This document shows positions 47,059 through 52,257 of a DNA stretch of 64,000 nucleotides, piece by piece. Positions within the stretch are counted from its first letter, which is position 1, and every line of letters starts with the position of its first letter. The notes beneath the pieces were generated by a model that did no database searches, was not told where the DNA came from, and worked only from the letters and a program-made list of their open reading frames with translations. The position numbers were made by a program, and so were the translations under genes. Location of the stretch: positions 1 through 64,000 of the forward strand of contig NZ_DAHVNP010000063.1 of NCBI RefSeq assembly GCF_027319265.1, given 5' to 3'. The stretch comes from Ferrimicrobium sp. GTDB taxonomy: Bacteria > Actinomycetota > Acidimicrobiia > Acidimicrobiales > Acidimicrobiaceae.

Positions 47059-47676
47059 TTATTTCTTGGCAGGTTGGTAGTAGGGATTGTTGCCAGCAGC
47101 ATGGTTGGTGACATCAACGACGTCGATGATCTCTGGAACTGCATCCTGAATCGCCGTGGCGATACCCTGCGACAGTGTCATGGCCGCCAAGCCACAACCT
47201 TGGCAACCTCCGCCCATCAACACATAGGCACGCTCTTCAACGACTCCCACGAGCTCGGCATACCCGCCGTGCGCAGCAATCGCTGGATTCACCTGCTCTT
47301 CGAGGATAGCGTTAACCCGCAGGGCGAGGTCATTGGCGAGTGCGTCCGGACCCAGATCGGGTAGGTCGGTAGCCTCAGGGGTTGGGGTGTTCGGGTTCGT
47401 GATGGCCAGCTCGCCGTCGCTGCCGACCTCCATGGTCGCTCCTGCAAGTCGTGAGATGGAGTCTTGAGGAATGACCACATTGAGCTCACCAAAACGGAGC
47501 TGTAGGTCCTGGGGATCCACCTGCGTTAACTCCTGGAAATAGACATCGTACATGAATGATGTTCCGTCGTTACCAGCGACCTCGACCCAAAGTGCGAGTG
47601 TCTCAGACGAGCCCTCGTCGGCCAACGCCTCCAACACCACTCCTACCGCCGCATCTGTTACCCGAAAATCGCTCAT
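47059..47676 (-). CDS. NfuA-like iron-sulfur cluster carrier
   Basis: About 205 aa. The N-terminal half resembles the A-type (HesB/IscA) carrier fold but lacks its cysteines, as in NfuA. The C-terminal NifU-like domain has the cluster-binding CxxC in MGGGCQGCGLAAMTLS near residue 167 and the helix VNPAIAAHGGYAELVG. NfuA-type proteins deliver [4Fe-4S] clusters to target enzymes. An Ala/Pro/Asp-rich linker joins the halves. I take the ATG at 47676, nine bases after GAGGA. It is divergent from the ATP-grasp gene, and its neighbourhood includes a radical SAM enzyme that needs such a cluster. Confidence 0.85.
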   Translation of the reverse strand: MSDFRVTDAAVGVVLEALADEGSSETLALWVEVAGNDGTSFMYDVYFQELTQVDPQDLQLRFGELNVVIPQDSISRLAGATMEVGSDGELAITNPNTPTPEATDLPDLGPDALANDLALRVNAILEEQVNPAIAAHGGYAELVGVVEERAYVLMGGGCQGCGLAAMTLSQGIATAIQDAVPEIIDVVDVTNHAAGNNPYYQPAKK

Positions 47677-47793
47677 CGCTCCCATTCCTCACTTCTTTGA
47701 AGTGGTCTCTCCACGACGAAACAGCCAAGCACATGAGCACCGACCCGTCGTGTTGAACGCAATCACTATCGTTCGTAGTACCATTCTAGACAC

Positions 47794-49011
47794 ATGCAAC
47801 ACATCGTCCTCGTCGTGCCAGCCGAGAGCTATCGAGCAGACGCCTTTTTACAGGCGGGGGCGCGCACCACACAACGGCTTACCTTGCTCACTGACGCAAG
47901 CCTTCCCCTAGGAGATGCAAGTCTTCATGTGAGCACGATGCCACCAGATGCTGAGGAGTTAGCACAACTCGTCGACCGACTCTTCGACCTCGCACCGACG
48001 CTCATCATTGGCATCGATGAACCCTCTACTCGCCTCGCTGCACTCCTCAGTGATCGACTCGGCCTCACCGTCGGCCGAGCCCAGGCCGTCGAGCGTGCCG
48101 TCGACAAGCTCTCCTTACGCAGAGCCCTCGACGAAGCGGAACTCAGCCAGCCAAAGCACCTCTTCACGACGCTGGAGGCACTTTCGCAGCTCGGCACCGC
48201 GGCAATCGATGACCTCGTCGCAGATCTCGGGGAACGCTTCATCGTAAAGCCCCCACGGGAAACAGCATCACGCGGGGTCATCCGGGTCAACAGCGCAACG
48301 CTTAGCCAGGATCTGGAGATCCTCAACGGAGTGATCGACCCGGGCACGCCGCTGCTCCTCGAGAGCTACGTCGAAGGGCCCGAGTTCGCCATCGAAGGTA
48401 TCCTCAACGGTGAGGATCTTGAGGTTCTCATGATCTTTGCAAAACCCGACATCGGTGAAGGCCCGTACTTCTGGGAGTCGACCTACGTCGGGCCAGCCAG
48501 GCTCACACCGGCCCAGCAGCACGAACTCACGAGCACAGTGGAGCGCGGCGCTCGTGCCCTTGGGTTGGCGGACACCCCTCTCCACGCTGAATTGCGTCTC
48601 GCCAAGGGGCATGCAACCATCCTCGAACTCGCCCCTCGATCGATCGGCGGCCGTTGCTCCGCAGCGATTCGCTTTGGAGACGGACAGCGCCTTGAGGACA
48701 TCATCTTACAACGAGCCCTTGGAGACACGAGCCCCATCAGGCGTCGGAACCGGTCGGTGGGCATCTACATGATAGCGACACCAGCGAGAGGTATTTTCCG
48801 CGAGGTCAGGGGTCTCGAGGCGGCGCTCGCAACCAGCGGTGTCACCGGTATCGAGATCACCGTCAACCCAGGGACCATGGTCTATCCACCGCCGTTGACC
48901 GATCGCTATCTCGGCTTTATTTTCGCAGAAGGGCTGAGCCATGCGAGCGTGCAACATACCCTCGCAGACGCGAGCGCCCAACTCAGAATCGTGATCGACT
49001 CAACCCAGTAA
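47794..49011 (+). CDS. ATP-grasp ligase paired with a radical SAM protein
   Basis: 405 aa. The ATP-grasp fold is clear: RFIVKPPRETASRGV binds ATP, LLLESYVEGPEFAIEG is the central strand pair, and ILELAPRSIGGRCS provides the Mg ligands. Enzymes of this fold join a carboxylate to an amine or thiol through an acyl phosphate. The N-terminal third (VVPAESYRADAFLQAG) is a Rossmann-like pre-ATP-grasp domain. The C-terminal 90 residues resemble the lid found in L-amino-acid ligase-type members. The radical SAM gene starts 36 bp later, suggesting a two-enzyme pathway. The substrate is unknown; it is not a recognised purine, biotin or D-Ala enzyme. Confidence 0.8.
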   Translation: MQHIVLVVPAESYRADAFLQAGARTTQRLTLLTDASLPLGDASLHVSTMPPDAEELAQLVDRLFDLAPTLIIGIDEPSTRLAALLSDRLGLTVGRAQAVERAVDKLSLRRALDEAELSQPKHLFTTLEALSQLGTAAIDDLVADLGERFIVKPPRETASRGVIRVNSATLSQDLEILNGVIDPGTPLLLESYVEGPEFAIEGILNGEDLEVLMIFAKPDIGEGPYFWESTYVGPARLTPAQQHELTSTVERGARALGLADTPLHAELRLAKGHATILELAPRSIGGRCSAAIRFGDGQRLEDIILQRALGDTSPIRRRNRSVGIYMIATPARGIFREVRGLEAALATSGVTGIEITVNPGTMVYPPPLTDRYLGFIFAEGLSHASVQHTLADASAQLRIVIDSTQ

Positions 49012-49035
49012 ACCAATCCAGTAAACGCGGCCCGG

Positions 49036-49050
49036 TAGACTGGTCTCATG
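49036..49050 (+). promoter_or_regulatory. Candidate leaderless promoter of the radical SAM gene
   Basis: TAGACT at 49036-49041, six bases, ATG at 49048. If active, the radical SAM gene can be transcribed apart from the ATP-grasp gene. A short direct repeat CCAGTAAAC lies just upstream on both sides of the ATP-grasp stop. Confidence 0.45.
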
Positions 49051-50403
49051 TCGGTACTCTTCATCTCCACGTACGAACTCGGCCACCAGCCACAGCTTGC
49101 CGCCGAGGTCGCAGCGGAGTTGCCTGAAGGACGTCTTGAAGTTCTCGACCTGTCAAAGGTTCCGTTGACGGTCGCCGCCGATGCGATGAGCCATGCCACA
49201 CGTGTCATCCTCACGGCACCGATGCTCACCGGCGCGCTCGTCGCCAGGGATCTCCTTGCCGCCCTCGAACCCGATCAACCAGAACGTCAGCTGATCGTCG
49301 TCGGGCTCTATGCCACGGCACTGCGGGAGTCGCTCCACCGTCCACCGGAGGCCCTCTGGCTGGACCGAGCGACCGCCTCCGAGCTTGCTGCGCTGGTGCA
49401 ATCCTCCTTCATCGATACCCAAGCCCACACGCAAACCGCCAAGGCGACCAATCGACGATCCTATCGTGTCAATCGAACACCGCTTATGCCACTCGATAGC
49501 TATCGCAGTGTCAGCATCGCTGGCCACGACCTTGTGACCGGCTATCTCGAGACCTCGGTAGGTTGCCGACACCGATGCCTTCACTGCCCGGTGGCTGCCA
49601 CCTGGAACGGAAGAATTGCCATCAACGATGCGGAGGCGGTCATCACGGATGGTCTCGCGCAGATCGAAGCGGGTGCCCAGCATCTCAGCTTTGGCGATCC
49701 GGACTTTCTCAACGCTCCCAAGCACTCATTGAAGGTGCTCACCACCTTGGCCGAGAAGGCGCCATGGGTCACCTTCGATATCACCACCAAAATCGCTGAG
49801 ATCCTTCGTCACCGCGACCTCATCCCCACGTTGGCGGCAAGTCACGTCAACTTCGTCATCTCCGCCGTGGAGAGCCTTAACGATGACGTGCTCGGTCACC
49901 TGGACAAGGGCCACACTGGCGCCGATGTGCCAATCGCAAGAGATCTCCTCTATGCCAATGGCATCGCTCTACATCCGACCTTCGTGCCATTTACCCCCTG
50001 GACGACAATGAGTGACCTCGTTGCTATCGTTGACTTCATCGTCGACTCCGACTTAGTTGACGTGGTTGAACCGATCCAGTACTCGATCGAACTGCTCACG
50101 CCGACCAACTCCTTGCTACCAGTCAATGACACGGATTTTGGCCCCTACGATGCCCGAGTGATGGGCTACACCGTTCGTTACCGCGATGAGCGCCTACCCT
50201 ATCTGCGCGATCGGCTATACCAGATTGCCGCCCAAGCCGGTGAGGATACCTTTGGCACAACGTTTCGGCGTATCTACGCCGCAACCTATGAGGCCAATGG
50301 ATTGTCTACACCGAGCGCTCCAACGGCACGGGTACGTGCACCGAGCACCGCCATCATGAGCGAACCTTGGTTCTGCTGTGCCGCCCCCGCGCAGCCACGG
50401 TAG
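49048..50403 (+). CDS. Radical SAM protein with CCAAP tail (CUAEP/CCAEP-tail type)
   Basis: 451 aa. Residues about 1-120 form a Rossmann-like domain similar to B12-binding domains. The SAM cluster motif CRHRCLHC (Cx3Cx2C) lies near residue 173 within LETSVGCRHRCLHCPVAAT. The protein ends SEPWFCCAAPAQPR. From memory this resembles a family named for a C-terminal CUAEP or CCAEP motif, in which U is selenocysteine; here both are Cys and the Glu is Ala. The tail cysteines may take part in catalysis or bind a second cluster (inference). The function of the family is not known to me. The ATP-grasp gene precedes it, and a helicase gene starts 3 bp after the stop. Confidence 0.8.
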   Translation: MSVLFISTYELGHQPQLAAEVAAELPEGRLEVLDLSKVPLTVAADAMSHATRVILTAPMLTGALVARDLLAALEPDQPERQLIVVGLYATALRESLHRPPEALWLDRATASELAALVQSSFIDTQAHTQTAKATNRRSYRVNRTPLMPLDSYRSVSIAGHDLVTGYLETSVGCRHRCLHCPVAATWNGRIAINDAEAVITDGLAQIEAGAQHLSFGDPDFLNAPKHSLKVLTTLAEKAPWVTFDITTKIAEILRHRDLIPTLAASHVNFVISAVESLNDDVLGHLDKGHTGADVPIARDLLYANGIALHPTFVPFTPWTTMSDLVAIVDFIVDSDLVDVVEPIQYSIELLTPTNSLLPVNDTDFGPYDARVMGYTVRYRDERLPYLRDRLYQIAAQAGEDTFGTTFRRIYAATYEANGLSTPSAPTARVRAPSTAIMSEPWFCCAAPAQPR

Positions 50404-50406
50404 CCG

Positions 50407-52257
50407 ATGCCAAATCCAGCACAACTCCTTGAGGGTCTGAGCTCCGAACAACGCGAAGCGGTCATGGCGGCCGCGCCGGTGCTCATCGTTGCTGGGGCTG
50501 GCTCAGGCAAGACTCGCGTGATCACTCACAGAATTGCCTACCAGATCGCCACGCAAGCGAACCGCAGTACCCAAACGGTCGCGATCAGTTTCACGCGGGC
50601 CGCCGCATGGGAGGTCTCACGGCGGCTCTATCGACTCCTCGACGGACCACCACCGGCCTGTGGCACCTTTCACTCCCATGCCCTTGGGTTGGTTCGTGAG
50701 GGTTCAGCGATGCTGGGTAGGCCGCTCCCGCATCTCATCGGTGACACGACGACACTCCTAGCCGACCTCGGGTTGCGCCTCCCCGAGGCTCGTCGTCGTG
50801 GCGTCATGGCTGAGATCGAGCGCCTTCGTGCGCTCGGCCATGACGCTGAGGGTCTCCAGCGCAACCCAACCATCATCGCAGTGCCAAACCCTGATGAGCT
50901 CATCGCCATCTTCGTGGCTCTTGAGCGCGCCAAGGCGCGCCAACGCCTCATGGACCTGACCGATGTTCTACGGATCGCCACCGAACTCGTCACACGCGAT
51001 GACGGCGTCGGCGAAGCCCTCCGCCTCCAGGCTCGCTGGGTCTACATCGATGAGTTTCAAGACGTCAACCCCCTCCAGCTTCGCTTCATTGAGAGATGGA
51101 TGGGCAATAACCTCTCAGGACTTACCGTCGTCGGAGATCCGAACCAAGCGATCTATGGCTGGAACGGATCGGATCCGGCGCTGATGACGCAGCTTTCGAG
51201 CCACATCCCAACACTGACCCACCTCACCCTCTCCACCAACTATCGCAGCACCGCCGCGCTCGTTGCAGCGGCCAGCCCTGTCGCCAGTGATGATCGGCGA
51301 ATCAGCATGCGGGCGCAGCGCCAGGGAGGTCAGCTCCCCAGTCTCTTCGGGACGGACTCGGTAGCCGCGGAGGGATTGCGTGCCGCCAGGGCAGTGGTGG
51401 AGCTGGCTCATCGCGACATTCCCTACTCCTCAATGGCGATCCTCGCGCGAACCATTCGCCAACTATCCCCGATCGAGGAGGCCTTTCGCCGTTTCGATAT
51501 CCCCCACAGTGTCCTCGGGCTGACCCCACTCGCCTCAGCCCCAGAGGTGATTGCACTCATGCGAAGCGCGCGCACAGAACGCCTCCAGATCACAGAGATC
51601 TGCGACACCGTCGAGGAGGCGCTCCTCTCCTCAACACCGACTCGCACCCCCAACCTACGGATACTGCTTGAAGTGGCGAACGAACTCCGACGGCAGGACC
51701 CCAGGTCAGATTATCTTGCCCTCGAAGAGCTGCTACGTGGACTCCAGATCAAGGGAGTCGATGCGGTGAGCATCACCACTTTCCATCGCGCAAAGGGCCT
51801 CCAATGGTACCATGTGCACCTTGTCGGTATTGGCGAGAAGAGTTACCCCTCTCGCCACGGGCTCTCCTCGAGTGCACTCGCTGAAGAACGACGACTTCTC
51901 TATGTGGCGATGACGAGAGCGACTGACTCGCTCACCATCAGTTGGTCAAAACCCAGTCGCGGACCGTCGACCCTACTCGCCCATCTCGACTCCGCAGAGG
52001 TGAAGCCCCACACACGAATCCCCCACTCGCAGGCCCACCCCTCCATCGCAACCCGATTGGACCGTTGGCGTGTAACCGTCGCCAAGGAGCGTCAGTTGGC
52101 CTCCTATCTCGTCCTCTCAGACGCCGACGTTCGCAGACTCGCGCGCCTTCGTCCCTCCGATAGGGAATCGGTCGCCGCCCTCGTGAGTACCCCGCTCGTC
52201 AGGGAGTCGCCTGAGCTCATCGACCGTCTCTGGGGAGAGTTCCTTCGGGTTCCCTAG
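50407..52257 (+). CDS. uvrD2: UvrD2-like superfamily 1A helicase with C-terminal HRDC domain
   Basis: 616 aa. Helicase motifs in order: Walker A AGAGSGKT at 29-36, motif Ia AISFTRAAAWE, motif II IDEFQDVNP near 216, motif III VGDPNQAIYGWNG, motif IV TNYRST, motif V HRAKGLQWYHV, motif VI VAMTRATD. The last 60 residues look like an HRDC nucleic-acid-binding domain (ASYLVLSDADVRRLARL). This layout matches mycobacterial UvrD2, although without its tetracysteine region. It is somewhat shorter than typical UvrD proteins. It begins 3 bp after the radical SAM stop and its end overlaps the convergent exonuclease gene by four bases. Confidence 0.85.
   Translation: MPNPAQLLEGLSSEQREAVMAAAPVLIVAGAGSGKTRVITHRIAYQIATQANRSTQTVAISFTRAAAWEVSRRLYRLLDGPPPACGTFHSHALGLVREGSAMLGRPLPHLIGDTTTLLADLGLRLPEARRRGVMAEIERLRALGHDAEGLQRNPTIIAVPNPDELIAIFVALERAKARQRLMDLTDVLRIATELVTRDDGVGEALRLQARWVYIDEFQDVNPLQLRFIERWMGNNLSGLTVVGDPNQAIYGWNGSDPALMTQLSSHIPTLTHLTLSTNYRSTAALVAAASPVASDDRRISMRAQRQGGQLPSLFGTDSVAAEGLRAARAVVELAHRDIPYSSMAILARTIRQLSPIEEAFRRFDIPHSVLGLTPLASAPEVIALMRSARTERLQITEICDTVEEALLSSTPTRTPNLRILLEVANELRRQDPRSDYLALEELLRGLQIKGVDAVSITTFHRAKGLQWYHVHLVGIGEKSYPSRHGLSSSALAEERRLLYVAMTRATDSLTISWSKPSRGPSTLLAHLDSAEVKPHTRIPHSQAHPSIATRLDRWRVTVAKERQLASYLVLSDADVRRLARLRPSDRESVAALVSTPLVRESPELIDRLWGEFLRVP

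Follow-up and report, generated by a model that had tools for sequence, protein, structure and literature searches.

An ATP-grasp ligase and a CCAAP-tail radical SAM protein of Ferrimicrobium as a candidate pathway related to ArsL

What might an ATP-grasp ligase and a radical S-adenosylmethionine (SAM) protein with an unusual tail make together, and does the iron-sulphur (Fe-S) carrier gene beside them belong to the same system? The question arises from a stretch of 64,000 nt of a Ferrimicrobium sp. genome (contig NZ_DAHVNP010000063.1, hereafter the window), where the original prediction had proposed an ATP-grasp gene, a radical SAM gene ending in CCAAP and a divergent NfuA-like gene. Open reading frames and profile matches confirmed all three. 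The NfuA-like Fe-S carrier (208 aa, 47059 to 47685, minus strand) is divergent from the ATP-grasp gene (405 aa, 47794 to 49011, plus strand), which is followed after 36 bp on the same strand by the gene of the radical SAM protein (451 aa, 49048 to 50403), here called rSAM. The gaps in the gene set are 108, 36 and 3 bp, too short to hold a separate precursor gene, and we found no transporter among the open reading frames of at least 80 aa at 44 to 55 kb, as had been predicted on both points. The rSAM was found in 7/7 genomes of the genus searched and in 34/36 of the family, the window's own genome included, so its conservation is above chance; the two family genomes without it are metagenome-assembled genomes (MAGs) that are 84 to 85% complete.

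The genome-context survey that the original prediction had called for was carried out on 140 loci, of which 130 were distinct. In 91 of the 130 distinct loci an ATP-grasp gene of this kind is no more than 1 kb from the rSAM gene, and in 95 no more than 4.2 kb; a gene for an NfuA-like protein that shares the NifU-type C-terminus is present near rSAM in 80, in 77 of them within 1.8 kb. Among the 82 loci that extend for at least 3 kb to either side, ATP-grasp was present in 64, NfuA in 60 and DUF169 in 11. Gene order differs by phylum. NfuA (divergent), ATP-grasp and rSAM follow one another in Actinobacteria and some Chloroflexi, the order is NfuA, rSAM, ATP-grasp in four Rhodospirillaceae/Rhodospirillales loci, and it is rSAM, NfuA, ATP-grasp in three Rokubacteria loci. 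The neighbourhood is thus not random, and the link to the NfuA-like carrier noted next door crosses phyla.

We also checked, in actinobacteria, whether the ATP-grasp gene occurs elsewhere in the genome when it is not near rSAM. An orthologue (at least 442 bits; next paralogue listed, 91 bits) is present in 29 of 30 rSAM-positive genomes, and the single positive without one, G021, has its rSAM gene at a contig end. None of 49 rSAM-negative genomes has the orthologue (best match 164 bits); 33 of these lack any rSAM match, and the other 16 match only weakly, at 98 bits or less, through radical SAM proteins of other kinds. In five genomes (G081, G170, G177, G221 and G446) the ATP-grasp gene is clearly apart from rSAM, and in all five an NfuA-like gene adjoins the ATP-grasp gene. 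The same neighbour is seen in G413, where the start of rSAM follows ATP-grasp at a contig end, possibly a contig break. A random neighbourhood is rejected by the loci and genomes together. ATP-grasp and rSAM almost certainly form one pathway, and NfuA is likely its third part. We also observed that in MAG G412 (71% complete) ATP-grasp and rSAM make up one open frame of 836 codons (L109:3145-5652, minus strand), which is either a fusion or an assembly slip.

To which family does rSAM belong? Its best profile is NF040546, the CUAEP/CCAEP-tail radical SAM (seleno)protein, with 349.7 bits over profile positions 1 to 463 of 468, below the curated cut-off of 500 bits; the next best is NF040542 (ArsL), with 185.9 bits against a cut-off of 450. 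The tail, FCCAAPAQPR, has CCAAP in place of the C(U/C)AEP motif of the family. The protein is nevertheless homologous to this family over nearly its full length and descends within it, and on these counts it is a member: in a FastTree tree it is placed inside the family next to a Ferrithrix group, with a support of 72 at that fork and of 95 to 100 at several wider ones. The family shares the ATP-grasp and NfuA partners of the window protein. NF040546 scores above its cut-off in 19/396 genomes of the phylum, a count in which the window's own protein is not included. Among the best 80 of 570 matches in a scan of records with organism titles we found Actinobacteria, Chloroflexi, Proteobacteria, Nitrospirae, Rokubacteria, Gemmatimonadetes, Poribacteria, Ignavibacteriales, Bacteroidetes, Calditrichia and others. 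In a plasmid collection, 17 records were retrieved and one, from Thermomicrobium roseum, carries a member of the CUAEP/CCAEP-tail family, with neither ATP-grasp nor NfuA annotated within 8 kb.

The relation to ArsL, which the original prediction did not contain, is the best lead to a mechanism. A profile built from 67 family rSAMs matched four ArsL-type proteins (one annotated ArsL and three RCCLKC-tail proteins) with 310 to 373 bits and six other B12-type radical SAM proteins with 89 to 109 bits. With selenocysteine (Sec) counted as Cys, 11 positions (Y152, D219, D244, T246, A273, P310, W318, L349, S355, C443 and C444) are identical in 67/67 family members and 4/4 ArsL-type proteins and in at most one of the six outgroup proteins. 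The CX3CX2C cluster motif (C173, C177 and C180; 49564 to 49587) is invariant in 32/32 and 67/67 sequences. ArsL thus has end-to-end homology with the window family, a Cys-Cys pair near the C-terminus and often an ATP-grasp gene nearby. It differs in the motif and length of the tail: the RCCLKC of ArsL is absent from the window protein, and Cys-Cys is the sole common part. In the available text of one study, ArsL alone yields hydroxyarsinothricin in E. coli and a 3-amino-3-carboxypropyl (ACP) radical is proposed (PMC8552651); an in vitro study of ArsL (Yao et al., JACS 2024) is cited in the accessible parts of two further papers (PMC12159101 and PMC11048331).

An ATP-grasp gene is present at three of the four ArsL-type plasmid loci, those of Alicyclobacillus, Priestia and Pantoea, and none is seen at the fourth in the 6 kb shown; the genes of these RCCLKC-tail clusters lie at L202:1436-2668, L203:483-1706 and L204:5572-6777. 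Their products contain ATP-grasp_4, with LAL_C2 below threshold in two of the three, and such L-amino-acid-ligase-like proteins hint at peptide derivatives of arsinothricin-like amino acids. Against the profile of the window family's ligases they score 94 to 133 bits, and other paralogues 52 to 166. We rejected them as orthologues of the window ligase: they score no better than paralogues and are not its sister group. Unlike the window family's loci, ArsL-type loci contain arsM, arsR, transporter or arsN genes, and none of the four viewed has an NfuA gene.

The ATP-grasp protein was predicted to be a ligase of unassigned substrate, and no assigned pathway was found. It matches ATP-grasp_4 (E 1e-20, 74.4 bits; Pfam cut-off 27) and LAL_C2, the L-amino-acid ligase C-terminal domain (E 8e-14, 52.1 bits; cut-off 29.4), both over the Pfam cut-offs, and has the domains of an L-amino acid ligase. 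Its closest solved structure is the L-amino acid ligase BL00235 (PDB 3vot), at E 2e-63 and 217.9 bits with the ligase alignment and at E 9e-20 with the single protein. By its sequence, then, it is a member of the family of L-amino-acid ligases, closest to those that form dipeptides. BL00235 and BacD have both domains in common with it; unlike them, the window ligases form a clade of their own that is tied to rSAM.

The NfuA-like protein has in common with NfuA (TIGR03341) a NifU-type C-terminal domain with CXXC, and its NifU domain was recognized. The full-length match is weak (93.4 bits, cut-off 269.35), and the window gene differs from NfuA in being kept beside ATP-grasp or rSAM.

What does the Ala in the tail mean? 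The original prediction took the tail family to be one in which Sec can occur, and an exchange of Cys and Sec was borne out: the tree set of 125 family tails has 38 with Sec and 87 with Cys, requiring at least 14 changes between the two (FastTree). It also called the Glu-to-Ala change in the tail unusual, but the change is not a lone oddity. Ala446 occurs in 11 distinct sequences and traces to a single change at the root of a clade nested within the family (FastTree), so we rejected tail decay in this strain. In the window the tail is SEPWFCCAAPAQPR (50359 to 50400), with Cys443-Cys444 at 50374 to 50379 and Ala446 replacing Glu; in the clade it stops 2 to 4 residues past Pro, compared with 7 to 40 in the NF040546 family.

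The change in the tail is accompanied by others in both enzymes. In a larger rSAM alignment of 135 rows, a few of which are repeats, five positions separate the 13 Ala-tail rows (the 11 distinct sequences) from the 122 others without exception: 62 (G versus A/S), 186 (W versus Y/F), 251 (E versus H/L), 348 (E versus R/K) and 446 (A versus E). The same split is seen at positions 153, 298 and 334, with one exception at most. Relative to the family the window protein thus has Y186W, H251E and R348E. At position 348 (50089 to 50091 in the window) Glu is found in 13/13 Ala-tail rows, and Arg in 114 and Lys in 8 of the 122 others. In the ATP-grasp protein, positions 87, 221, 227, 281 and 324 have the clade residue in 11/11 sequences and in 0/38 others; Trp227 (48472 to 48474) is specific to the clade, the 38 partners of Glu-tail rSAMs having Glu, Ala or Pro and BL00235 having Glu at the aligned residue. 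The C-terminus of the NfuA-like protein reads TNH in 13/13 clade members and TDH in 74/74 others in which the motif was read. Judged from these sequences, the Glu-to-Ala change looks like remodelling, not decay. We infer that R348 may pair with E446 in Glu-tail proteins, which would put the tail in the active site; a contact between the residues is not proven, because the clade arose once.

The Cys/Sec exchange was compared with the presence of tRNA-Sec at a threshold of 65 bits, chosen in this analysis (curated, 47). At least 65 bits was reached in 11/15 Sec-tail and 3/15 Cys-tail genomes (Fisher p 0.009, kinship ignored), and not in the window's genome. The three Cys-tail genomes with tRNA-Sec are G406, G036 and G118, so Cys tails are not simply a loss of Sec decoding. 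In four Sec-tail genomes no tRNA-Sec reached this score; two of them, G017 and G140, are MAGs at least 95% complete, and the Sec reading was not confirmed there.

Taken together, we propose that rSAM would carry out an ArsL-type transfer of the ACP group from SAM to an acceptor, giving an amino acid, that the ATP-grasp protein would then form a peptide bond between this amino acid and a second one, and that the NfuA-like protein would supply or restore the cluster of rSAM. Ligation of a peptide by ATP-grasp is probable; ACP chemistry in rSAM is favoured with less assurance, and ACP transfer followed by peptide-bond formation, though our best joint reading, stays just short of an even chance. 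Candidates for the acceptor are sulphur, selenium and an atom connected with Fe-S metabolism. As both enzymes are altered in the Ferrimicrobium/Acidimicrobium clade, the product there may be a different one. The widest form of this proposal is tentative and less likely than the joint reading: a multi-phylum pathway in which an ACP radical at a Cys-Cys or Cys-Sec tail makes a heteroatom amino acid that is capped as a dipeptide, the pathway either depending on Fe-S cluster assembly or serving it, with a chemically different version in acidophilic Acidimicrobiaceae after the changes in both enzymes.

Several points weigh against this proposal. The short ArsL tail was aligned to the longer family tail through the Cys-Cys pair itself, and relatives of ArsL need not retain its reaction. 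Arsinothricin itself, according to the available text of the ArsL study, requires no ligase (PMC8552651). In a quick tree with long branches, the ATP-grasps from ArsL clusters do not group as sisters of the window ligase, and the parallel between the two cluster types may be convergent. The changes of the clade arose together once, and their coupling is without statistical support. The tail has lower confidence in the structural model, with a mean predicted local distance difference test (pLDDT) score of 74 for residues 441 to 450. Of the 82 loci that reach at least 3 kb to either side, 15 have neither ATP-grasp nor NfuA nearby, and no NfuA-like gene was found near 50 of the 130 loci.

The most serious alternative, which we consider doubtful, is ordinary radical SAM chemistry in another order: ATP-grasp would first make a dipeptide, and rSAM would then modify this dipeptide, or a protein in its place, through a 5'-deoxyadenosyl radical or cobalamin-dependent methylation. 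Searching the solved structures by sequence with rSAM alone gave no match. The AlphaFold model of rSAM (mean pLDDT 93.2, predicted template modelling score 0.92) has its closest folds in AprD4 (Z 24.3), OxsB (23.1), CysS (22.7) and MgmA (22.5), with matches starting at residue 1 or 2, and also in TsrM; several of these are cobalamin enzymes by their entry titles. The B12-binding-like N-terminal domain predicted earlier is upheld as a fold in this model, and such a fold does not imply cobalamin binding. AprD4 itself has the B12-type fold and is not known to use cobalamin. AprD4, OxsB, MgmA and TsrM share the overall fold of the model (Z 21.6 to 24.3, root-mean-square deviation about 4), but their identity to rSAM in the structural alignments is just 13 to 16%, and a fold shared in a model says nothing on function. 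By sequence, rSAM is far closer to ArsL than to the six other B12-type proteins, in which the residues shared with ArsL are replaced.

The proposed ACP transfer and ligation also have to be set against a role directed at a protein or cluster, in which rSAM and the ligase would make no free metabolite but would act on a protein, for example the NfuA-like partner or some other factor in Fe-S assembly. This is improbable. The NfuA-like link speaks for it, as do SufT-like genes near rSAM in L130 (profile-tested), L132, L135 and L169, and SufS-type and lipoyl synthase neighbours (2 each) among 116 neighbours of non-Actinobacteria loci (of 232 listed). However, the ATP-grasp protein resembles ligases of free amino acids, Fe-S neighbours besides NfuA are few, and YggX, the most frequent of the 116 (5), may merely mirror mutY-yggX pairs. 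Next in frequency are formyltransferase and DUF169 (4 each) and SufT-type, beta-eliminating lyase, aminotransferase and TPR proteins (3 each), and they offer a thin hint at Fe-S metabolism. We also observed SufD- and SufS-like genes, named by eye, upstream in L130 and L135.

Slightly less probable still is an organoarsenical pathway with As(III) as the acceptor, as in ArsL, in an acidophile from metal-rich water. The homology with ArsL, including the Cys-Cys tail, fits this, and Ferrimicrobium lives in acid mine drainage, which is often arsenic-rich. With 12 ArsL-locus proteins as queries, however, an ArsM-like gene was found within 6 kb of rSAM in just 2/130 loci (L177 and L200) and an ArsR-like match in just one (L200), the rest of the window's genome not being searched, and the family is common in organisms without an obvious link to arsenic among the best 80 of 570 matches. 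An arsenic context as a rule is rejected, and because ArsM-like genes are so rare at these loci the acceptor in the proposed ACP transfer is probably not arsenic. That the genes have no functional link and stand together through shared ancestry of gene order is very improbable: UvrD, YceI and MarR genes also hold their position within Acidimicrobiaceae, but beyond the family they were not found again in linked clusters, whereas the ATP-grasp and NfuA links cross phyla in differing orders, and ATP-grasp and rSAM are present or absent together even in genomes where they are not linked (29/30 versus 0/49).

The pathway had been predicted to be undescribed, and no description was found in a literature search with subscription journals and preprints outside its scope. 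The name of the family did not occur there, and terms for its motif and model returned unrelated papers; a description elsewhere is possible. In their available text, a 2026 review of prokaryotic selenoproteins names two other radical SAM selenoprotein families (PMC13188914) and a 2022 review names one other (PMC9312934). A family with a database name, for which no substrate was found, now has a ligase as its constant partner and an NfuA-like protein as a frequent one, and its sequence ties it to ArsL, an enzyme with unusual chemistry. If the proposal is true, C-gamma-S cleavage of SAM would be widely used by bacteria instead of being a rare reaction confined to diphthamide and arsinothricin, and there would be a widespread metabolite still to be isolated.

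Some further observations concern the surroundings of the gene set. DUF169, considered as a further core partner, is present near 18/130 loci in several phyla (L078:8539-9267, minus strand; also L093, L146, L150, L163, L172 and others), and the literature search returned no function for it in the text available. One contig, L167, is labelled as a MAG of Bifidobacterium breve and carries rSAM together with an ATP-grasp that has 96% identity to one query ligase; the five query ligases all come from the window's phylum, none is labelled Bifidobacterium, and the record is probably misbinned. In a check on whether mycothiol is replaced in rSAM-positive genomes, MshC-like matches of at least 390 bits, none over the cut-off, were present in 12/20 rSAM-positive and 19/20 negative genomes. 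The match is present in the window's genome and family, and the eight positives without it lie outside the window's order, so kinship explains the imbalance. Form I CO dehydrogenase was over its cut-off in 2/20 positive and 4/20 negative genomes. UvrD, YceI and MarR genes, linked only within the family, were rejected as parts of the pathway. Downstream of rSAM, a short UvrD-type helicase (616 aa, 50407 to 52257, plus strand) with an HRDC match begins 3 bp past the stop codon, and its position beside rSAM is conserved solely within Acidimicrobiaceae.

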